Below, piece by piece: positions 30,901-46,830 of a DNA stretch of 64,000 nucleotides. The stretch spans positions 1,550,001-1,614,000 of the forward strand of contig JAHLKI010000003.1 of NCBI GenBank assembly GCA_025602905.1, given 5' to 3'. The translations under genes were made by a program, and so were the position numbers. Every line of letters starts with the position of its first letter. Position 1 is the stretch's first letter. Source of the stretch: Phlyctochytrium arcticum (taxonomy: Eukaryota; Chytridiomycota; Chytridiomycetes; Chytridiales; Chytridiaceae). The notes beneath the pieces were generated by a model. The model was not told the origin of the DNA. It saw only the letters and a list, made by a program, of their open reading frames with translations, and searched no databases.

Positions 30901-33209
30901 CTCAATCGGCAACTGTCGGACAAATTTCTGCTTTACTGCTTCCCTTGAAGGAAATTCTTTTCCACGCCAACACCACAGCTATCAGTCGAAAACTGGAGGA
31001 AGCTTTAAAACGCCTTGCGTCAGGACTAAGGTCTAACACGAACTTGAACCAGATGCAGTTGTTGTTGCTAGGACAAAAGCTCTTGCAGGAGTTCCAGCTT
31101 TCAAATGGAGGAAATGAACCCAAGTCGGAAGCAAGTGGCTTGCGCAACATGAAGTGGTTTCACACACACTCCTACGTTTTTGTACAGTTTGGTTTGTGGA
31201 TCATACAAGGACAACTCATGCATGAGACCCGCGCTGGTCTAACCCCGGAACTGGAAGAAATTCTGGCTCAAGTCAACAAGCAGCTGGTCCGCTACCTGAC
31301 TCAAGATCGGGCATCCTTGCGTCTGACTACGGTCCAATTGCTCAATACCATTATTCAGCTCTTACCAGAATCTCTCGCTTCCTACGCCGTTAACCTTGTA
31401 GATCACCACCTCAGCTTTCTCGAATCGTACAAAACTCAACCAGAATTGGCGAACGCGGCGGCTCGCTTCATTGCCTTGGTCCTCCGAAGCTTACCGGATT
31501 TCAAGCTTTCCGCATTCCACACCACCGCATTTTGTACCTTTATAAAAGGACAGATAGCCGTAGGATTGCAGCATGATCAGTTGGCCTGTCTCAATCTCTT
31601 GCGCGAGCTCCTCGGTCGCAAATGTCTGGTCAGTGACATTTTCGAAATCATGGATGATGTTGGTCGCGCGATGGTCACAAGCTCTGCGGATCAAGTTCGT
31701 GTTAGGTGTCAGCTGCTGTTCATGCAATATTTGTTGAGCTATCCGATTGGAACTGCACGGTTACGAAAGCAAATAGCGTCGCTTGTGCACAATCTCAGCT
31801 ACAATGGGCAAGGCGGTCGGATTTCGGTGCTCAAAACTATCGGCGGGTTGTTGCAAAATTTGACGCCTGAAACAATTGCAGAATATGTTGAGGCTGTTTT
31901 CCTCGCCCTGTGCAATACCCTAGTGGAGGATGAGTCCCCACAATGCCGTAAATTGGCCGGAGAAAACCTGACATTGACGATCAAAGCATGCGACGAGAAC
32001 ACACTCGCTAAGTTGAAGCAAGTTACTACCCACTGGTTTCAACAAGAAAACAAGGTTCTAGTCCGTGTAGCCGCGCAGGTTTCCATGTACTTTATCGCCG
32101 ACGACACTGCTACGATGAACGGTTGGACTAAGCAGTATATCCCTCTCCTCGAGAGGACATTACTCAGCACGTGCTCAACAGTTAGATCTGATGAGGAGTT
32201 TGCGGAGGATTGGAGGCTCGGGTACCAGTGCTTGGGGACTTTGGAAAGAGTGTTTGGTGACCATCCCCAACTACTGGAAATCACAGAGTCAAATCGAATT
32301 TGGGAAACGATTGTGGACATTATGAACTATCCGCACGCTTGGATTCGTTTGTCTTGCAACCGGCTTCTCGGACTCTTATTCACCTTCTTGGACACGTCCT
32401 CCACCCCATCACTGTATACCGATACCACGCATATTTTACTGCGCCGAAAGTACTCGGTCCGGAAATTGACAAATAGGCTCTGTGGACAATTGACTATTGG
32501 CATGACGGAGGACTTTGCAGCACAAGTACACAAGAACCTGTTGTTCTTGACCAAATGCCTTGTCTGTTGTGAAACCCAGCAGTCGTCAGAGGACCCAGAC
32601 AATGATAATCCCCTCTTACCCCTCATTTTCACCGAGCTTTCAAATACGGTCAAAATCCTTGCTGAAAAATGTGATTTTATTTTGGTAAGTATTGAATGTC
32701 AATTCGGAGAATGTTTTGCATTGGAGACTAAGAATCTTCCTCCCCATTAGCTACAAACAGTTTTGCAGTGGTATGCAGCGGCAAATCCCTTACTCTCAGT
32801 GGCTGACAAGAAAACATACTTGCCGTCAATGCTGCGCACCATGAATCGAATTTCTGTGGCGGCCACGCGACCAGAAGGTAAGAGTCTATCATCCAATTCA
32901 AAATCGATAAATTTCTGAGCATCTCCTTTAGATCCAATACATGGCGTCATCCGTGAGGTGAGGGACGCTTTATCGGGCAGTATTGAGAACCCCACTGTGG
33001 GCCAGGAGCACTTCCTCAACACGGACCACGAGATTCTTAACGAAGCAAAGAATAAGCGGGAAGCCCGTAGGAGTCAACAAAAAGCAGCTGCAATTACCCA
33101 GTCTGGCGAGGTTGCAAAGCGAAAGATCCAACGAAATTTGAATAAGCGGAAACGGATCAAGGAAATCAGCGCACAGCATAAAAGCTGGAAACAGAAGCGC
33201 GTGTCTTGA
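24903..33209 (+). CDS. UTP20: UTP20/DRIM-type U3 snoRNP (SSU processome) component
   Basis: UTP20 is a giant HEAT/ARM-repeat protein of the small-subunit processome needed for 18S rRNA maturation. The gene starts at 24903 (in-frame ATG also at 24912), with exons 24903-24971, 25023-25103, 25162-25536, 25590-25669 and 25726 onward. A single exon of about 6 kb from near 26700 to 32683 holds most of the repeats. Family features include DLQDDFSPYNKDFLVALTPI near the N-terminus, EMMATLARGYQKHVLVYTIH in the conserved middle, and a very basic C-terminal tail (AKRKIQRNLNKRKRIKE) ending at TGA 33209. Estimated length is about 2,600 residues, as expected for the family. An acidic insert lies near 30280-30340. 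Its 3' end faces the Fanzor element. Confidence 0.9.
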
Positions 33210-33279
33210 GGAGAGCGCTTTCACCATTCTATCACCATCATTTCTTGTACAGTATTTCCTTTAGCGTTTTTCTTTTTAA

Positions 33280-33291
33280 TTTATTCCTCTA
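33280..33291. repeat. Left copy of 12-bp direct repeat flanking the Fanzor element
   Basis: tttattcctcta is identical to 36806-36817. It may be a target-site duplication, or part of an AT-rich terminus. Confidence 0.55.
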
Positions 33292-33440
33292 CAAGTAATG
33301 AAGGAGTGCTTTCGCACGTCCAAACAACAGAGGTAATGTCCGCACGCACAACAACAGAGGTTGTGAGTTACGGTGTGAGCACGGCAGGTACCCGACTCGG
33401 AAACTATAAAGCTATCTATGGGAAACCAACTACAGCTAAC
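33292..33440 (-). ncRNA. Candidate Fanzor guide (omega/fRNA) scaffold region
   Basis: TnpB and Fanzor guide RNAs derive from the 3' end of the element, read in the sense of the gene, with the guide supplied by flanking DNA. Read on the minus strand, this 150-nt tract between the Fanzor stop and the element end ends in a hairpin at 33321-33303. Its stem pairs GGAcGTGC with GCACTCC (one bulged C) and is closed by a GAAA tetraloop. A second stem (CACAAC/GTTGTG, loop 7) sits at 33347-33365. An 11-nt tail then leads to the boundary, so the native guide would begin at about 33291 with tagaggaataaa. The scaffold may extend upstream into the coding region. Position and structure support the call; transcription is unproven. 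Confidence 0.5.
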
Positions 33441-36106
33441 GTGTAAAAACCAAAGGGCGCCCATTTCCAGCCAACTCGGAACTGACAATCTTGACCATGT
33501 TGCGGGTGCTGAGGACGTCGCGGTTGTACAGCTTCATGACGATCGGTTGCGGCTGTCCAGAGACTGTGACAATTTGAGGCGTCCAGGATTGCTCAATACA
33601 TTGTAGGTTGGGACAACCCAGCAATCCATAGACCGTCTCAAGGTCATTGCCCCGCCATGGGCGCGAACTTGGGCGTTTGCGGAAGCCTGAAATCAGCCTA
33701 CCTTCACACTTGATGCAGCGCGAAGAGGTCCGGTATTCATCCAGCAGGAAGCATGGGATGTGGTGTTGCGCGAAGAGCTTCCGGAACCCCACCGTCTTCG
33801 TCGACGTCTGGAACCGCATGGTGTGTCCAGCATCGTTCCAGTCGCCCATCACCACGCTGAAATGTTTGCCGTACTTACTCCGCATGTTTCTGATCAACTT
33901 GGCTTCCGACGCCTGCCGTAGAGAATAAGACAGAAGGCGTACTTGAATGTGCCATGGGCGGCTGTAGAATGGCTGTAGGGTAGGAGTGGCGGCCTGGACG
34001 TCGATCAGATTTTCTGCAAAATTGTTAACGTCCATGCTTTTATGGGTCGGGATCGCTGACTCGATCTGAGCCACTCCCGCTTGCGCTTTCTTTGCTTCCC
34101 GTTTCTTTCGAATGACGTTCGACTTTGTTTCGAACCTTCTTTGCATCGAAGTGTAACGAAAGGGGATTTGTCTGTTGAGATCGCGACAAAAGAGGAGGTC
34201 GCGTTTGTTGGGATCGATAACAACGACGTTGGGGGCTTGGCGAAGCTCGTCTAGATGGTTTTGAAAATACAGCTGCTGCAGCTCGTTCCTCAGCGCCTGC
34301 TTAGATTTCCGCATCTTCTTGTAGCCATATCGCAGCCCGGGTTCTTTGAAGTGCACAGAAGCAGCATGTCCATCGGTGCTAATGGAAAAATCAAATTCCA
34401 GCCCAAGACGACGGCGGTGCTTGAATATCTTGTTATTCAGGCGAAGCACACGATTCCACAGATTTCGCTTGCGCACGACAGTCCATTTACCCCGCATTTG
34501 TGAAGGCCGCATCCCAAGAATACTAAGGGCCAAGATCTTGGTGTCGATTCGCACATGAGATTGTACCCAGGAGCGGCGAAGCGGAACTGCTTGGAATAGC
34601 CGCAACCCATGTTGTTCGTACAGTGTGGAGAGCCTACAATAAGAACCCAAGTAGGCAAGAGGGTTGGCGACAGTGGAGTATTGCAGGCACTCGGTTTGCA
34701 CGGGGATTATTCCCCACAGTTCAGTCAAGACTTCAGACTCGAGCGTCGTCAGACCATCCAGTTCATCCTCCTCCGGATCTTCCTCCAAAGTAGCCAATTG
34801 TTTGAAACGACGTAGACGCCCATAAAATATATCGAGTTGATTTCCCCCATCCGCCAAATCCTTGAGCGCCTGAACTGTTCCTTGCACGTCCAGTCGCACA
34901 TTGATGTAGCGCAAATACATTTGCATGAAATGCTCCTTGACGTTGACGGTCAGATTGGTCAAGATGCTGTCACCAGTGTAGTGGGCAGTTTGTTGGTCGT
35001 TCGGCAGGTTGCAGTGGTCAAAATCGAAAATAGTACAGTATCCTTCGACATACGGCCAGAGCTCCTCCTTTATGGCAATTTTATGTTGGGTCCTAGGTTG
35101 ATATGCTTGTCCCTTATTCAGTAGTTGGAATATAGCGTAAATATGCTCCTTAGTGAGGATGGTAAAATCTTGGGGACTGGTTTTGTGGCATAGGTAGTAC
35201 TCGAGACAATACGTAGTGTGCTTGGCAAGGAGATGTACAGTCTGAATAAACTGGTTGATCTGAGTCAGATGGGTTACTTGGCCAATTTGATCCCGAATAA
35301 TTCGATGTAATGCGCATTTAGTTGTTGAGTGGGTTTCTGGTGGATGGTGCGGCGGGTTGGAAGCGGCGGATGATGGAGAAGGAGACGAGGGTTGCGATGA
35401 GAGCGGTGTTGATGGCGGCGTTGAATCGGACTCATGTTCGCTGTGGCTTTCAGAGTCTTCGTGAACAACAGGTGCATTCGACGGTCCCGCAGAAGCGGAT
35501 GACATGTTGCCTTGAACTGTTGCCGCGGATGTGCCTGAAAGTACAGACCTTGACTCTTCACCCATCGCGCCAGTCCGTTCCGCAATTTGACGTTGCATTT
35601 TCTTTTTCTCTGCTGGAGATTTGCCGTGTAATAAGCATGGTTTTGCCGTCGTGCGGTAGTGGATGGCTATCCCATTGTTGCTGGGATCAAGAAGGTAACA
35701 TTTACATGGGCACTTCTGGTGCTCTGTAATGTAAAATCAGTTCTCTGTAAGTTTAAGTTTCAAATTAGTTGCTCGCCAACACTTACTTTTCTTTTGGGCA
35801 ATTTCTGGTGAAAGAGATTGGAGGCGCAGACGCTTTCTACGCTTTGGCCCTAATAAAAAATTTTCATGAGTCGGTTGGCTGAAAGCTGTAACGAAAGAAA
35901 AGTCTGTAGGCACCCATTGATTCTTCATCTAAGCGCTTCGCGAGTTGTTGCGCAAGTTGCGCGTCAGCATTGAGCTGTTCAATAGGTGTGGAAGTGGTGG
36001 GGGGTGGGGGTTTTTGAGAAGTGCTGGGCCATTTTCCTTTCGCGAATCGTCTCACGCAAGCGGGGTCCCGGCAGTGCCCCCATGGTTTATGATGGGGACA
36101 CTGCAT
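33436..36106 (-). CDS. Fanzor: eukaryotic TnpB-like RNA-guided nuclease
   Basis: Fanzors are eukaryotic relatives of TnpB/Cas12 that use an element-encoded guide RNA to cut DNA with a RuvC domain. I splice three exons: 36106-35914, 35849-35787 and 35723-33436. The introns are 64 and 63 nt with GT-AG ends, the phases are consistent, and the total is exactly 848 codons including the stop. The RuvC-I aspartate lies in VVVIDPNKRD (about residue 589 of 847). RuvC-II is VVMGDWNDAGHT. A zinc-ribbon segment starts EYRTSSRCIKCEGRL near residue 750. The RuvC-III aspartate is in LYNRDVLSTRNM (about 821). All expected acidic positions appear intact, so the enzyme may be active. The N-terminus has two Cys/His clusters (MQCPHHKPWGHCRDPAC and HQKCPCKCY...CLLHG) and a Ser/Pro-rich linker, which are unusual. 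The start codon could be further upstream, because the ATG lies close to a possible splice acceptor. Confidence 0.88.
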
Positions 36107-36805
36107 ATCGGTAAAGAATCGGAAGAAACGGGGGATGAGAGAAACGCTGAATGGTATATACCGGCGGTGGACGCTCTCTTTGTATAGCGAAATGTAGTGT
36201 GTGAGTAAAAACTCGGATGTATTACTTCGGGGAGCACTCAAGGCTCCCATTATATACAGGAAACATAGGCATGACAATGATGTAGGAAATGCTGTGCGAG
36301 CGGCCGAGGGTAACCGTGTGATCGTGTTCATGGTGTTCAGGGATGAGACAGCTGTCAGTGGCAGACGCGACACTATCGTAGCCATTCTTGTCAGTGTGAA
36401 CTATGTTTGCTTGTTGTGAATATTCGTGTTGGTTTAACGGTTATGTGTATTGGTAAACCGCTAATCACTAAAGGGGGAGTGCGGTCTCCCTCGACATATA
36501 TTCTAGTACAACTACAAAACTAATCTCCACGCAAAGACTGTCAAGACTAATTACAGTGATGACTGGACAGAACCTTAGCGGACTTGTGAAGACCGGCGGG
36601 ACGAAAGCGGACGAAAGCGTAGTAATTTGTGGACAGAATAGGCCAGAAGGCTCGGAAAAATCTGGCAACAGGCTCGTTGGAAAGACAGGAAGCAAGAGTA
36701 CCGTCAATAAAATCAGCATTAAATTTGAAAGGTAGGGAAAGGACAGACGTCGTTTGAAAGACAGAGCAAGAAACGGAAAGACTATGAAAACGGACAGGTC
36801 ACTCC
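36107..36805. other. 5' non-coding part of the Fanzor element
   Basis: About 700 bp upstream of the Fanzor start, inside the inferred boundary. It contains a hairpin-like tract gggagcactcaaggctccc near 36229-36247, a ggttta/taaacc inverted pair near 36431-36458, and a stem-forming ggggagtgcggtctccc near 36475-36491 that echoes the element's left end (ggagtgc). TATA-like tatatac sequences occur near 36150 and 36252. No coding frame is convincing. Confidence 0.45.
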
Positions 36806-36817
36806 TTTATTCCTCTA
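36806..36817. repeat. Right copy of 12-bp direct repeat flanking the Fanzor element
   Basis: Identical to 33280-33291. Reading the minus strand, the four bases CATA end two bases upstream of this repeat (36820-36823). Confidence 0.55.
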
Positions 36818-36863
36818 TTTATGTAACTAGCCGCACGCAATAACACTATCTACATTATTTACG

Positions 36864-38758
36864 CTACATACTGAGAATCTGTCTTGGCAGTACGGACTGG
36901 ATGGTGGCATGCAAGGCTTGCGAGTCCACCTTGTGAATCTCTCCAGTCTGCCGCACGTGAACTTCTATAAATCCAGTTTTCGTAAAATCTTTGCCGAGTA
37001 CAATCGAATACGGAACACCCAGTAATTTGGCGAAACGCAGTTTGCCTCCGATACCCGCTCCCGTTCGATCATCCAGTACAACCCTGTCTTCCCCGAGAAG
37101 GGTTTCGAGCTTTTCGTACATGGCATGTGCTACCTCATCATTCAAGTCTCCTGGTGAGTATATGATGTTCGCAGCGTATGGCGCAAGGGCCAGCGGCCAT
37201 TTAAGTCCATCCTTGTCGTGGTTTGCTTCTACAATGGCGGGCAACATGCGAGAAATACCGATACCGTAGCAGCCCATAAAGATGGGCTGTACTTCATTGG
37301 AAGAGTTTTTGAAGGTCGCATTCAATGGCATGGAATATTTTGTCCCCAAGAGGAACGTATGACCAATTTCGATGGCGCGAGAGGTTTCAAGGAGTCCGAC
37401 ATCTTCGTACGACAATTCTGAGCAGGAGGCACAAGCATCGCCAGCCTCAATCAGCACGAAATCACCGATATTTGCCTCGCCATTGTAGTGACAACTATGA
37501 TCCACAAAGATAAGATCAGCTGGACAAGCGGTACTCCCGTTTGATGGTGATTCCAGCTTGATAGTAGTGTTTACAAGTTTGCGATGCTTTTGAAGTTTCA
37601 AGAGGTTGACTTGCCGGCCAGCCGGCAGAATGATTTTACCAGTTGTAACTTTGCCAGATTCCTCTTGTACACTGAATGGAACGGTTTGCTGATTCGATGA
37701 TTCCCCAAGTTCAGACGGGAGAACTCCAACTCCAGTCTCAACGTTGGCAACATATGAGCATTTATTACATGTCAAGACTGAATCTTCGCCCACTACAACA
37801 ATACCACCCTAGTCAAATCGAAAAACCATGTATGCGTGTATGCGAAGACTGCGACACACTTACCACTTGAAGTAAACAGATATTCGTGAGAGACACTTCC
37901 CCCAATACTTCCACTATCAGCATTTGCAGCCACAAACGGAACCCCAATCTGCGTGAAAATACGATCATAGGCTGCCCGAACTTCCTCGTACGTCTTCCGT
38001 GCTTCTGCTTCTGATGTATCAAAGGTGTAGAGATCTTTCATTATAAACTCCCGAGCTCTGAGAAGACCAGATCGCGGCCGAGCTTCGTCTCGATACTTTC
38101 TGCCTATGCGGGACTCAGTCAAAGTTCGCAGCAACGGGCCAAAGTAAACATACCAATTTGATAAAGACGGAGTGGAAGATCACGATATGATGAGACCTCA
38201 GCAGCCACCAATGCTGTGATTTCCTCTTCGTGCGTTGGCGAGAGACAAAATTCAGTCCCTTTGCGATCGTGAAGCGTGAATAGCTATGAGAGGGCATCAG
38301 TTTGTTCCCATGATGCTCTTGAGATTCGATTATGAAATTGTACCTCGCCCCCCGTGTTCCATCGTTTTGTCTTATGCCAATTTTTGGATGACAGCAAACA
38401 TGGAAGGGCGACTCGTTGAGCGCCTATTTACACAACTGGCCAGTCATTAAATCTTTCATCATACCCGGAACGACACAGTCTATCCTACCTACGGACGCCA
38501 TTTCGCGGGAAATGAGCTTTTCCAAACGCTCAAGAGTCCGAACGGCTAATGGGAGCATGCTATATATCCCTGCCCCTCCAGACTAAAGCAGCTTTATTCG
38601 ATATGGAAGTACTGAATGTATTAACCGACTCTTCTGACCTGGCGAATGAATCCAGCGCTGAGAAGAAGTTTTAAGCTTGGAGCCGCCGTCTTTGGAAAAG
38701 CTCCATCTTGTCGTGTATGGGGAACCCATATCTTTGATAAGCGGTTATAGAAACTCAT
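36864..38758 (-). CDS. Prolyl-tRNA synthetase, bacterial-type (probably mitochondrial)
   Basis: This class II aminoacyl-tRNA synthetase charges tRNA-Pro. It is of the bacterial/mitochondrial type rather than the eukaryotic cytosolic type. The start at 38758 gives [20 protein letters not shown], a basic presequence-like leader. Later exons encode [20 protein letters not shown] and [18 protein letters not shown], then [14 protein letters not shown], motif 2 ([32 protein letters not shown]) and the motif 3 region ([16 protein letters not shown]). The anticodon-binding domain follows ([43 protein letters not shown]). A CxxC pair (CNKC) and a second Cys pair (CASC) lie in the insertion region. The gene has about five introns. 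It converges with UTP20 across the Fanzor insertion. Confidence 0.92.
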
Positions 38759-42069: not shown

Positions 42070-43242
42070 ATGGAATACGATCCTGCTCTCTATTTCCGGT
42101 GCAGATACGCTGAAGTCTGGGGGACAGTTTGTTATGTTATTGCGGTAAGCGATACGGAGATACGCTGATGTTGGGCACTCATTAACCGGTTTAATGATCC
42201 TCCAAATCAGATTGTGTTATGCCTCGAAACTGCGTGCGGTCTTCTGACAAGCGAACGATTCAAAGGCTCCAGACCTATGCACTTGCACCTTGTCTGCAGT
42301 ATCACCTGGCTAGCTGTCGTTCTTACCTATTCTGCGGCCTTGCACATCCGCTCCGGACCGTCGCGCAACAGCTTGCTAATCCTCAGTGCCGTGCTTGATG
42401 TACTCGGGAGAAGCATTCTCGTGTACAATGTGGCAACCCGAGCATTGTGTGTGCTCACTTTCCATCAGAAAGTGAAACGAGCTACACAGGCCACGCTCTA
42501 CGTTGTTATTATCCTGATCATCGCCTCAGTGGGTGGACTAATTCCCGCATATATTCAATCCAACGGACTGTACTCGTCAAACCATCCTGGATACCACATC
42601 TATGTGGCTGGGATTATCTTGGATCTGATATTCTCCATTGTATGCGACACCTTGTATCTCTATGTCATTCGCGAGTGTGTTTCCATGTACGGTCGGTTTC
42701 CTCATCGACGAACAACCTTGGCATCGATAAATTTGGTCGTGCTTATGCTTTTGGAGGTTGTTGCCATCGTACTCGTCTTGACCGACATGGACCAGCAATT
42801 TGGAGCCCACTACGTGTGTACTGCGCTGCGCATTCGGTTTTTTACTTACATCGTCAAGTACACCGACCGTATCTTGCGGACAAGAAACAGGGAAAACAAC
42901 CGCGCTAATGGTATCCCATCGGGAAATGCGCGCTCAGACGCAACGACACCTGAGACGAGCGGCCCACAAACTGGAGACACCAGTGGTTTCAGTGGAGGGT
43001 CTACAGTGGAAGCCGATCTGACCGCTCCAAACATGTGTCGCACCAACTCAATACCACCGCGAATGGACGTTGAAACTGGACACATGCAACGTCCACATCG
43101 CAATACTGATCAGCTAAGTCTTCCGGAAATGCGTATCAATACGGACGTCTCGAATAATGGTCGGCGATACTCCAGTTGGGCATCTCCCGACTCTGACGCG
43201 ACTCGAAACTCTGCTACATCTACCGAACCGTGCCTGATATGA
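42070..43242 (+). CDS. Seven-helix membrane protein, array copy A
   Basis: I do not recognise the family. Exon 1 (42070-42144) encodes MEYDPALYFRCRYAEVWG and the start of helix 1; exon 2 is 42211-43242, giving 368 residues. Hydrophobic segments number about seven, including LVCSITWLAVVLTYSAAL, LLILSAVLDVLGRSILVYN, TLYVVIILIIASVGGLIPAY, YVAGIILDLIFSIVCDTLYL and INLVVLMLLEVVAIVLVLT, followed by a short last helix ending FFTYIVKYTDRIL. The layout, with a short N-terminus, short basic loops and a long Ser/Thr/Pro-rich tail, is receptor-like. The tail is full length here and ends ATSTEPCLI. This copy is the reference for the truncated copies B and C. Confidence 0.8.
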
Positions 43243-43928
43243 ACAGACAAGATCGTATCCGCCTCCGGTGAACGACTCTAGCGCAGCAATGCAGGCCGTT
43301 CCGGTAACGGTCCAGCTTTCTTTCCATTGTTTCATCCCACTTTTCTAGAGCTTTTTGCTCACCATGCGGTTCTCTGTCCCTGCATTTCTCCATCCAATCT
43401 TTCATAACCGTAGCACATCTATCCCCCATTTGAGAGTTGCTTTACGGACACCAACTGTGCCTGAAGTCTGCTTTATCCTTCTATGAGCGGTGCTTCTCAT
43501 TGTAATATATTATTTTCTGTCTTGTATACTGCTCACCACCAACGGTTTTCGCCGATTATCGAGTTTACACAGTTTACATCCGCAATCGTATAGAACTCGA
43601 ATGGTCATGACGAGTAAAACAGAGACGTGTCAATATGTGACTGCGCGGCGCGTCGGAACACAGCGGGGGCTCTGTCGAAAAACCTGCTCGAAAAGGGGTC
43701 CATGTGCAGAACACGTATTGATGAGATGAGAAGAAGCAGCAGCAGAGAGATGGAAATGACGATATCGAGGGCTTGAGATATTGGGAAAAACGTCGTCGCC
43801 CACAAGCATAGGTTTTTGGGCTGTGATTCAGACATGCTACCAAGTACACACCAAATGAACAACACAACGGCTGTCCTGCTCACACAAACTCTCCGAGAGC
43901 TGAAGAACGCTTGCCCCAATTGCCCGTC

Positions 43929-45040
43929 ATGGAACACGATCCCGGATTTACTTTCTCATGCACTTTTGCCGAAGTCTTTGGACGGGTCTGTGATGTCGTG
44001 ACGGTAAGGGAAAGAGGACGGCCTGAGTTTGGCATATATTCATCAATTAAATAAATGATCTCTCACATCAGATTGTGCTATGTATCGAAACTGCGTGCAG
44101 TCTGCTGACAAGCAAACGGTTCATAAAGTCCAGACCTATGCAACTGCATCTCCTCTGTACCATCACCTGGCTAGCTGCTAATGTCACGTATTATGCGGCA
44201 TTGGACCATGACTTGGAAACGCCACGCGATGTCCTACTGATCGTCAGTCTTTTACTTGATGTATTCGGGAGAAGCTTACTTGTATATAATGTAGCAACAA
44301 GAGCATTGTGCGTGCTCGTTTTTCATCAGAGATTGAGACGAGCTGTACGGATTGCGCGCTACGTTGTCATAATCCTCATCATCGCATCGGCGGGTGGACT
44401 GATTCCCGCATACATTCAATCAGACGGAATTTACGTGCCAAATCATTCCGGATACTACATCTACGGGGCTGGGATTGTCTTGGATTTGATATTCTCTATC
44501 GCATGCGACGCGCTTTACCTATATGTCATTCAAGAATGTTCCTCCGTGCACGGTCAACTTCCTCGTCGACGAACAATTTGGGCACAATTGAATTTGGCCA
44601 CGCTTGTAGTTTTAGAGAGCGTCGCCATCGTTCTCGCCTTGACCGGGATCGACCAGGACTTTGGGGTACACTACGTCTGTACCGTGCTGCGCATCCGGTT
44701 TTTCGTCTACATCATCAAATACACCGACCGGATGATCCGGGCAAGAGACGACGCCAGCAGCCTTTTTCCTAATATTCCATCAGGAGATGCGCTCTCAGCA
44801 GGAACAATGCAGGAGTCTGGTGGACCACAAGCCGGAGACATCAGTGGTATTAGTGAAGGGCCTACGGTGGAATCCGAGCTGACCGCTCCAGAGACACTTT
44901 TCAGCAATTCAATACTCCCGCGAATAGATATCGAAGACGAACACATACAACATTCACATCGAGATGCTGATCAGCTCAGCCTTCCAAAAATGCGTATCAA
45001 TACGGATTTCTCGAATAATAGTCGGCGATACTCCAGTTGA
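43929..45040 (+). CDS. Seven-helix membrane protein, array copy B (C-tail shortened)
   Basis: A close paralogue of copy A with the same exon layout: exon 1 43929-44003 (MEHDPGFTFSCTFAEVFG, 25 codons) and exon 2 44072-45040. The seven hydrophobic segments align with A throughout (for example VVIILIIASAGGLIPAYIQS and GIVLDLIFSIACDALYLYVI). The tail stops at NNSRRYSS because the TGG codon of copy A has become TGA. The sequence past that stop still encodes the missing 20 or so residues (ending TDPCLI and TGA), so the truncation is recent. The upstream and downstream spacers are homologous to those of A and C. Confidence 0.8.
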
Positions 45041-45772
45041 GCATCTCCCGACTCTGAAGTTACTCGCACCTCAGCTACATCTACCGACCCGTGCCTGATA
45101 TGATCGGACGCGCATATATTCTTCGCTCCTTCCTTTAACTTCGGTGAACAATTCGAGCGCAGCAAGGCAGGCAGTTTCGGTGATTTTTATCCATCTTTCC
45201 ATCCCATTCTTAAAAAAATAATTCCGCACCATACGGTTCTCTGGCCTTACATTTTCCGTTGAAATCTTTCGCGTACCATAGCACATCTCTATGAAGCCGA
45301 TCCCTGTTTGTTTGAGTTGCTTTACGGACACCCACTGTGCCTAGAGTGTGTTTTGGCCTTCTATGAGCCGTGCTTTTCGTTGTAATATATTACTTGCTGT
45401 CTTGTACACTATAAAAAATCATTTGTTTCCGCCGACCATCGAATTTACATCCTGAATCGTGGAATCCGAATGTTCTGTGGCGGTGCACTCTAGGACGCTG
45501 CGCAACGAGTCGAAACAGAGCGGGGGCCCTGTCAAAATACCTGCTGGAAAACGGGTGCATGAGTAAAACACGTATTGCTGAGGGATGAAGCAAGGAGATG
45601 CAAATGATATTAGCGAAGGCTTAAGATATCGGGAAAAACAGGCTAGCATCGTCGCCCCCGCACACAGGTTTTTGGACTGTGACCGCCAAGATCACAGCAA
45701 CTGAAGAGCAACCGCCGTCCTTCCCAAACAAAGGTTCCGAAAGCTGAATAACGTTTGCTCCAATTGCGCGCC

Positions 45773-46830
45773 ATGGAATACGATCCCACTCAGAGTTCCT
45801 CATGCAACTTTACCGAACGCTTTGGGAGGCTGTTTATTGTCACTACGGTGAGGGGATGACGATGGCTTGAACTTTGGCATTCATTCATCAGTTGAATAAT
45901 CCTCACAATCAGATTATGCTATGTATCGAAGCTGCGTGGAGTCTACTGATAAGCAAACGGTTCAAACGCTCCAGGCCCATGCAACTGCATCTTGTTTGTA
46001 CGATCACCTGGCTAGCTGCTACCGTTACGTATTCAACCGCCTTGCACGGTGACTTGGGAACGCGGCGCAATGTCTTGCTGATCATCAGTGCGCTGCTTGA
46101 TGTGTTTGGGAGAAGCTTTCTCGTGTGGAATGTGGCAACAAGAGCGTTGTGTGTGCTTGTTTTCCATCAGAAATTGAGACGAGCTATATGGTTTGCGCTC
46201 TACGCTATCATAATTCTCATAATCGCATCAGTGGGTGGACTGATTCCCGCATACATTCACTCAGACGGAATTTACTTGCCGAACGATGCTGGATACTACA
46301 TCTACGTGGCTGGAATTATCTTGGATCTGGTATTCTCCATTGCATGCGACACGCTGTACCTATGTGTCATTCACGACTGCGCTTCCATACACGGCCAGCT
46401 GCCTCGCCGACGAACAATTTTGGTACAATTGAATTTGGTTACGCTTGTTATTTTAGAGACCGTCGCCATCATTCTCGTCCTGACCGGAGTTGATCGGCAA
46501 TTTGGGGTACACTACGTCTGTACCGTCCTGCGCATCCGGTTTTTCGTCTACATCATCAAATACACCGACCGGATTATCCGGGCAAGAGACACAGTTAGCA
46601 GCCATTTTCTTGATATTCCACCAGGAAATGCGCTTTCAGCAGGAACGATGCAGGAGCCTGGTGGACCACAAACCGGAGACCCCAGTGGTGTTAGTGAAGA
46701 GTCTACGGTGGAACCGGATCTGACCGCTCAAGACATACGTTCCAGCAAGTCAATGCCACCACGAATAGATATTGAAAACGGACCCACACAACGTTCATAT
46801 CGAGATACTGATCGGCTCAGTTTTCCGTGA
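45773..46830 (+). CDS. Seven-helix membrane protein, array copy C (C-tail shorter still)
   Basis: The third paralogue has exon 1 45773-45847 (MEYDPTQSSSCNFTERFG) and exon 2 45913-46830. The membrane core is intact (AIIILIIASVGGLIPAYIHS, GIILDLVFSIACDTLYLCVI). The coding frame ends at DRLSFP, where a TGA replaces the GAA of copy A, removing the tail segment MRINTDVSNNGRRYSS and everything after it. Sequence downstream of 46850 no longer resembles the array unit. The conserved core suggests that selection acts on the helices rather than the tail. Confidence 0.78.

Follow-up and report, generated by a model that had tools for sequence, protein, structure and literature searches.

This study describes a Fanzor locus in the chytrid Phlyctochytrium arcticum; Fanzors are RNA-guided nucleases of eukaryotes. 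The window, i.e., the whole stretch of 64,000 nucleotides (nt) that was analyzed, is C3:1550001-1614000 (contig JAHLKI010000003.1) of a genome of 31.5 Mb in 91 contigs, against which all genomic comparisons were made. The Fanzor gene of the window is spliced and unbroken, according to its exon model and to comparison with related copies. Judged by its sequence, the predicted product is a new member of Fanzor1, well supported and close to SpuFz1 of Spizellomyces punctatus; its coding sequence is intact, but the surrounding element is not. The joint explanation that fits the locus best, and which we consider quite probable, is a mobile element that carries a SpuFz1-type Fanzor1 gene, produces a guide RNA from its right end, homes, and shows a failed repair at its left junction.

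The gene lies on the minus strand. Exon 1 (35914..36106) begins with the start codon at 36106 (MQCPHH) and with the first part of a Cys/His-rich N-terminal module; exon 2 occupies 35787..35849, and exon 3 (33436..35723) encodes the REC, WED, RuvC and zinc-ribbon part. Joined across two GT-AG introns (35913-35850 and 35786-35724; 64 and 63 nt), the three exons form 847 codons without a stop, which bears out the reading frame proposed in an earlier note on this DNA. A copy on C16, 73% identical, has the MQCPH start and both introns (GT and AG) at equivalent places, and is itself disrupted by a frameshift and a stop. The MQCPH start is also found in a copy on C9. A start codon at 36385, the first methionine of the open frame, was rejected, since 36393-36202 is a solo long terminal repeat (LTR) and MQCPH is the start in both of these other copies.

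When the exon-3 frame was compared with the proteins of solved structures using phmmer, only SpuFz1 (E=7.4e-159) and PpFz1 (E=2.4e-36) were found at E<=1; a profile built from four copies also finds GtFz1 (E=5e-9). Residues 152-766 of the frame align with SpuFz1 from about its residue 34 nearly to its end, about the first 33 residues being unaligned, and 288 of the 592 aligned positions are identical. The homology to PpFz1 falls into two stretches, from REC to the zinc ribbon. In SpuFz1, D383, N385, E541 and D606 are reported to hold two metal ions (PMC10432273). These correspond to D589, N591, E748 and D821 of the 847-residue protein and are identical in all four cases, so the acidic RuvC residues are kept. 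The zinc-ribbon pairs CIKC and CPNLQC align with those of SpuFz1, before the last Asp. The earlier note had named the motifs VVVIDPNKRD and NRDVLSTRNM and a zinc-ribbon Cys pair, all of which are present (the pair as CIKC), and CPNLQC can now be added as the second pair; its assignment to Fanzor is confirmed by this close homology. Its remark that Fanzors have few characterized members is fair, but the present protein is a close relative of the best-characterized one.

Residues of SpuFz1 that contact the target-adjacent motif (TAM), namely R96, Q129, Q130 and Y345, are kept in the alignment, as are the contacts R268, S269, R407, R420 and K440. Two TAM-reading residues are replaced (N133 by H, R291 by P). 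The further DNA contacts Q148 and R260 also differ, and the others tested are kept. In SpuFz1, the base paired against the C of CATA is contacted by R291; it is therefore reasonable to guess that the first TAM position is relaxed here, and this agrees with the AATA at the insertion site in the window and the TATA at that of a second copy, L004 (C9:778656). The N-terminal module (35575-36106) consists of two Cys/His clusters (MQCPH..PWGHC..C, followed by C.C..HYR..CLLHGKS) for which SpuFz1 has no counterpart. It recurs at seven other loci, including the C16 and C9 Fanzors; the five further ones are C56:19479-20085, C13:392869-393490, C13:320706-321254, C2:691772-692101 and C14:434192-434704. 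A protein search of a large sequence collection gave no match at E<=0.001 among the 7999 candidates scored. In viral contigs, one pattern match and no relative was found with a single-sequence query, which detects close relatives only.

The search of the fungus's own genome, in which 59 of 85 candidates were scored, returned at least 67 matching stretches. They include two families. The four copies of family B are nearly identical (99%), which indicates that it was recently mobile, and family C has six copies, 96% identical to the query copy. The window copy is single in the genome except for a 5'-truncated fragment on C7, which is 96% identical over 751 bp. The ratio of nonsynonymous to synonymous substitution rates (dN/dS) is 0.225 between the window and C16 (655 codons) and 0.306 between the window and C7 (199 codons). 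Both values are well below 1 and indicate past purifying selection on the Fanzor gene. Silent sites are saturated between the window and families B and C and the copy L007. As regards the C7 locus (L010; C7:139966-143151), the fragment is joined at its 5' side, at about position 936 of the reverse complement, to a different TnpB-like zinc-ribbon reading, recognized by eye (CTRCGHRREIGGQKKYSC); two Fanzor-type genes may have been fused here into a chimera. The copies L003, L004, L005, L006 and C16:513337-515562 belong to family B; their left ends do not resemble their right ends, and most of them lie at TA. A left end was not found for family C, whose copies differ far upstream.

The right end of the element is a good candidate for a guide-RNA scaffold, followed by a variable guide. 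The candidate scaffold (33290..33400, minus strand; 5' limit guessed) would end in ...GUGCGAAAGCAC-UC-CUUCAUUACUUG-UA, the last two letters being the insertion dinucleotide TA at 33290..33291. With the pattern GTGCGAAAGCACNNCTTCATTACTTGTA and up to 3 mismatches, four matches were obtained genome-wide and none in the control. All four copies diverge straight after the TA and have unrelated flanks. Their last right-end columns are invariant at 26 of 29 positions, and the proportion of silent differences between the window and C16 is 0.455. A GUGC-GAAA-GCAC hairpin (33306..33317, minus strand) is identical in all four. A 28-nt tandem duplication within the scaffold (33317-33384) is present in the window and C7 copies only and absent from C16 and C6. 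In SpuFz1, the guide RNA consists of a scaffold of 75 nt and a guide of 14-15 nt (PMC10432273). Taking the length from SpuFz1, the predicted 15-nt guide of the window is GAGGAATAAATTAAA, the host sequence adjoining the right end (33275..33289, minus strand). The genome contains the target TAGAGGAATAAATT a single time, at the right flank of the window element. Like the window element, related copies carry a CTTGTA right end (7 of 7 in family B; 5 of 6 in family C, the other having CTTGAA; also the C26 and C9 copies), and an end of this type was not recognized in three further copies (C51, C46 and C6:489803). An Rfam search of 33200-36900 gave no match up to E=1.

At the other end of the element, a 240-bp repeat, R1 (36563..36802, minus strand), recurs at at least 21 other places in the genome. 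Eighteen of these stretches were aligned with the window, and their starts were compared in 17. The relatives extend outward past the window's GTGACC wherever the stretch reaches that far. A common outer stretch of about 45 nt ending in GTCGGTCC or similar is shared by 12 aligned rows, which represent nine distinct loci because three appear twice; in L025, L028, L031 and L032 it is a related variant. A clear start at or close to TCAAAAGAG is seen in seven distinct loci, and TA stands directly before the start in four of the seven (two TATA, two AATA; the others have CA, CA and AA). Because the homology runs further out in its relatives, the window copy is 5'-truncated and lacks about the first 45 nt of R1, whose clear relatives start at TCAAAAGAGTATACC or near it. 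The ends had been described as defined, which holds for the right one and not for the left. A second repeat segment, R2 (36412..36561, minus strand), is 87% identical to one other locus, and part of it is 85% identical to a second. The R1 loci were considered as putative complete "ghost" elements; in the R1 stretches analyzed, which extend 1.5 kb to either side, no A-type right end was detected with up to 6 mismatches allowed.

The 12-bp direct repeat claimed for the ends does exist: TTTATTCCTCTA is found at 33280-33291 and, exactly, at 36806-36817. The left junction reads AATA-GAGGAATAAA-GGA-GTGACC and the right flank reads TA-GAGGAATAAATTAAAAAG; the repeat thus consists of the insertion TA and the first 10 nt of the guide target. 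Its left copy (36806..36817; TAGAGGAATAAA on the minus strand) is preceded by AA, which gives the candidate TAM AATA. The bases GGA at 36803..36805 match neither the target nor R1 and may be filler. Given the truncation on the left, this repeat cannot be read as the simple target duplication that a complete element would show.

Junctions were compared among 19 copies by seeking the longest start of the TA-plus-right-flank sequence in the stretch upstream of each. These stretches are unequal in length (141 to 4300 nt), and the copies include the other members of family C and those on C16, C6, C26 and C9, in which the left end itself is not defined. A 12-nt repeat lies exactly at the left junction in two of the 19, the window copy and L004 of family B. 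Both are 5'-truncated by about 45 nt (L004 lacks about 44 nt that are present in L003, L005 and L006), and both lie at a NATA site (AATA and TATA, respectively). In the other 17 copies, the repeat is at most 8 nt long (8 in one, 5 or 6 in ten, fewer than 5 in the rest); these shorter matches are presumably due to chance. The 17 include four family-B copies that are complete or nearly so and possess a right end; they lie at AGTA, CCTA, GGTA and CCTA and have no repeat beyond TA. A further family-B copy, C2:197490, lacks both a right end and a TA at the left end.

Between the left end and the Fanzor gene, 95 nt ahead of the start codon, sits the solo LTR of a Ty1/copia retrotransposon (36202..36393, minus strand; 192 bp; TGACAAG...ACTCA ends; CACAC as a 5-bp repeat on both sides), so the neighborhood is not intact as had been supposed. 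The LTR may supply or block a promoter. Its family is present at at least 16 other places, some of them paired about 5 kb apart. In two copies with two LTRs, the frames beside the LTRs match Pfam RVT_2 and gag_pre-integrs, a combination that we take to be that of Ty1/copia.

By analogy with SpuFz1, the right end of the element would be transcribed into an omega-RNA, the guide RNA, with the adjoining host sequence GAGGAATAAATTAAA as its last 14-15 nt. Protein and RNA would then cut element-free copies of the insertion site beside a NATA TAM (here AATA), and the cut chromosome would be repaired from the element-bearing copy, which would restore the element (homing). With less confidence, the truncated left junction may be a failed repair, in which copying proceeded from the right end inwards and the product was joined to the cut left side, where the stump would have kept TA and 10 nt of target. 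That the left junctions of the window copy and of C9:778656 are natural scars of Fanzor homing is a tentative proposal, against which we would lay the heavier odds. For this to hold, the empty allele would have been cut at NATA, copying would have broken off with about 45 nt of the left end still to go, and the TA and 10 nt of target at the left stump would be too short for recutting. An ordinary target duplication, produced by a transposase or by one-ended transposition that leaves the left end unused, would involve no Fanzor cutting and has about an even chance of being correct. One-ended transposition without Fanzor yields the same junction picture. In Chlamydomonas, 5'-truncated CRe elements show duplications of about 7-19 bp after a TTTT-like site, while those ending at the consensus 5' end show none; one-ended, Helitron-like transposition was proposed for them, and some of the duplications (44 to 443 bp) are longer than a Fanzor cut would leave (PMC3627910). 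However, the present elements insert at TA and show the same pattern, yet no Helitron feature was recognized in them, no profile search for one having been made. Moreover, if a cut is followed by copying that begins at the right flank, and the product is then joined to the left stump, at most as many target bases can be left as the cut position allows, and the 10 nt of target fall short of the SpuFz1 cut positions, 16-17 and 20-21 nt (PMC10432273).

The imperfect inverted repeat at 36800-36814/33294-33308 (13 of 15 positions paired, 87%), together with the exact 12-bp direct repeat, could suggest a complete element, bounded by short terminal inverted repeats and flanked by a target duplication of 12 bp, as the ends given in the earlier note imply. 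This is very improbable, and it was rejected on the grounds that homologous left ends continue outward with shared sequence that the window lacks. In addition, the supposed inverted repeat consists in its outer part, AGGAATAAA, of target sequence, which is also present outside the right end, and the four complete or nearly complete family-B copies carry TA alone. A relic is rather unlikely: the gene would still be open owing to a recent insertion, silenced by its truncated left end and the LTR, and immobile. The roughly 45-nt deficit at the left end, the nearness of the LTR to the start codon and the stops in several other genomic copies would fit such a state. But the 847 codons are free of stops and keep the active-site residues, dN/dS is well below 1 against two copies, and the right end, from which the guide RNA of SpuFz1 arises, is whole.

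A homing Fanzor element with a failed repair at its left end is thus preferred, and several observations weigh against it. Only two cases of the supposed scar are known, and the truncated or rearranged copies at C3:225900, C20:328676, C7:141466 and C17:217462 have no repeat. Expression and cleavage activity of the window protein are putative, by analogy with characterized Fanzors, and the form of its TAM is a guess because N133 and R291 of SpuFz1 are replaced. An AlphaFold2 model built from 4 sequences had a predicted local distance difference test score of 39 and was not used. For the nearly identical family-B copies L006 and L003, dN/dS is 1.2 on very few changes, with no sign of recent selection there. 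In single-sequence folds, the scaffold of the window family is no better than shuffled sequence (window, z -1.12 with 25 of 200 shuffles as good; three other copies, z -1.17, -1.81 and -0.74), while that of family B is (z -6.08). Of the 3' scaffold claimed in the earlier note, the sequence and the end are conserved in four copies, but the fold does not stand out. Finally, the protein matched no Pfam family at E<=10, and in NCBIfam it gave a single irrelevant match (E=1.6). We know of no dedicated Fanzor profile in either database; the null is weak evidence about Fanzor1 membership, as it reflects a limit of the tool and not a defining trait. The lack of a profile match, which the earlier note had named as a refuting outcome, was thus observed for Pfam and NCBIfam, but it is overridden by the direct homology to three Fanzor1 proteins of solved structure (SpuFz1 and PpFz1 by single sequence, GtFz1 by profile).

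By Pfam family matches, the Fanzor gene is flanked by a UTP20 gene and a class II tRNA synthetase gene; reading the latter as prolyl is our own assumption, beyond the Pfam match. The UTP20 gene lies on the plus strand at about 26.7-33.2 kb of the window and matches four UTP20 sequences of solved structures at E<=1e-20 (best 3.2e-138, weakest 1.4e-102), of which the first three are presumably fungal and the last human. No transposase gene was recognized among the element's frames of at least 80 amino acids (aa), a search that was not exhaustive. Elsewhere in the window, at 42169-46830 on the plus strand, three related adjacent frames of 357, 329 and 319 codons resemble membrane-protein paralogues by eye.

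As a predicted nuclease, the protein adds a complete relative of SpuFz1 that is moderately diverged, has altered TAM contacts and bears an extra N-terminal module; it is of use in comparisons of the rules for guides and TAMs. The 2023 SpuFz1 paper gives the biological role of Fanzor cleavage as unknown, and suggests action through cutting of the sister chromosome in general terms (PMC10432273). Among the Fanzor papers listed for one-ended transposition, target duplications, Helitrons and homing, no title or abstract opening states the idea of homing scars. If true, the scars would be evidence of Fanzor function in vivo, and cut-and-repair homing would leave a trace that can be counted in any Fanzor-bearing genome. 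They would also explain the 7-19 bp duplications of Chlamydomonas that were left open in 2013.

The closest known system is SpuFz1 (PDB 8gkh, 9ceu-9cez). The two share 288 of 592 aligned residues, the active-site residues, a guide-RNA candidate that lies at the right end, downstream of the gene, TA as insertion site, and a multi-copy fungal element. They differ in that SpuFz1 has 633 aa in one open frame, while the window protein has 847 aa, two introns and an N-terminal extension of about 200 residues with the Cys/His module, which SpuFz1 lacks. The Spu-1 element has terminal inverted repeats of 30-33 bp and a TA duplication (PMC3627910; PMC10432273). Inverted repeats of this kind were not found at the window element, which is truncated on the left and where only the 13/15 repeat, partly target sequence, is present; complete family-B copies share the TA with Spu-1, but their two ends are unlike. 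PpFz1 of Parasitella parasitica (PDB 9cf0-9cf3), with a published TAM of ATN (PMC11423790), is also a Fanzor1 protein but far more distant. The Fanzor1 elements CRe-1, CRe-2 and CRe-3 of Chlamydomonas reinhardtii resemble the present case in that truncated copies carry short duplications after the insertion motif (PMC3627910). They have Helitron-type ends and a TTTT motif, whereas the window element has TA and no recognized Helitron ends. That study covered about 150, 70 and 35 loci, against two clear cases here, and Bao and Jurka left undecided whether Fanzor caused the duplications (PMC3627910). Similar to TnpB of IS200/IS605, in which a transposon-derived guide RNA, a TAM by the target, and cutting of the empty site that favors retention are described (PMC11870625), the window Fanzor would act on its own insertion site; unlike TnpB, it is eukaryotic, larger and intron-bearing.

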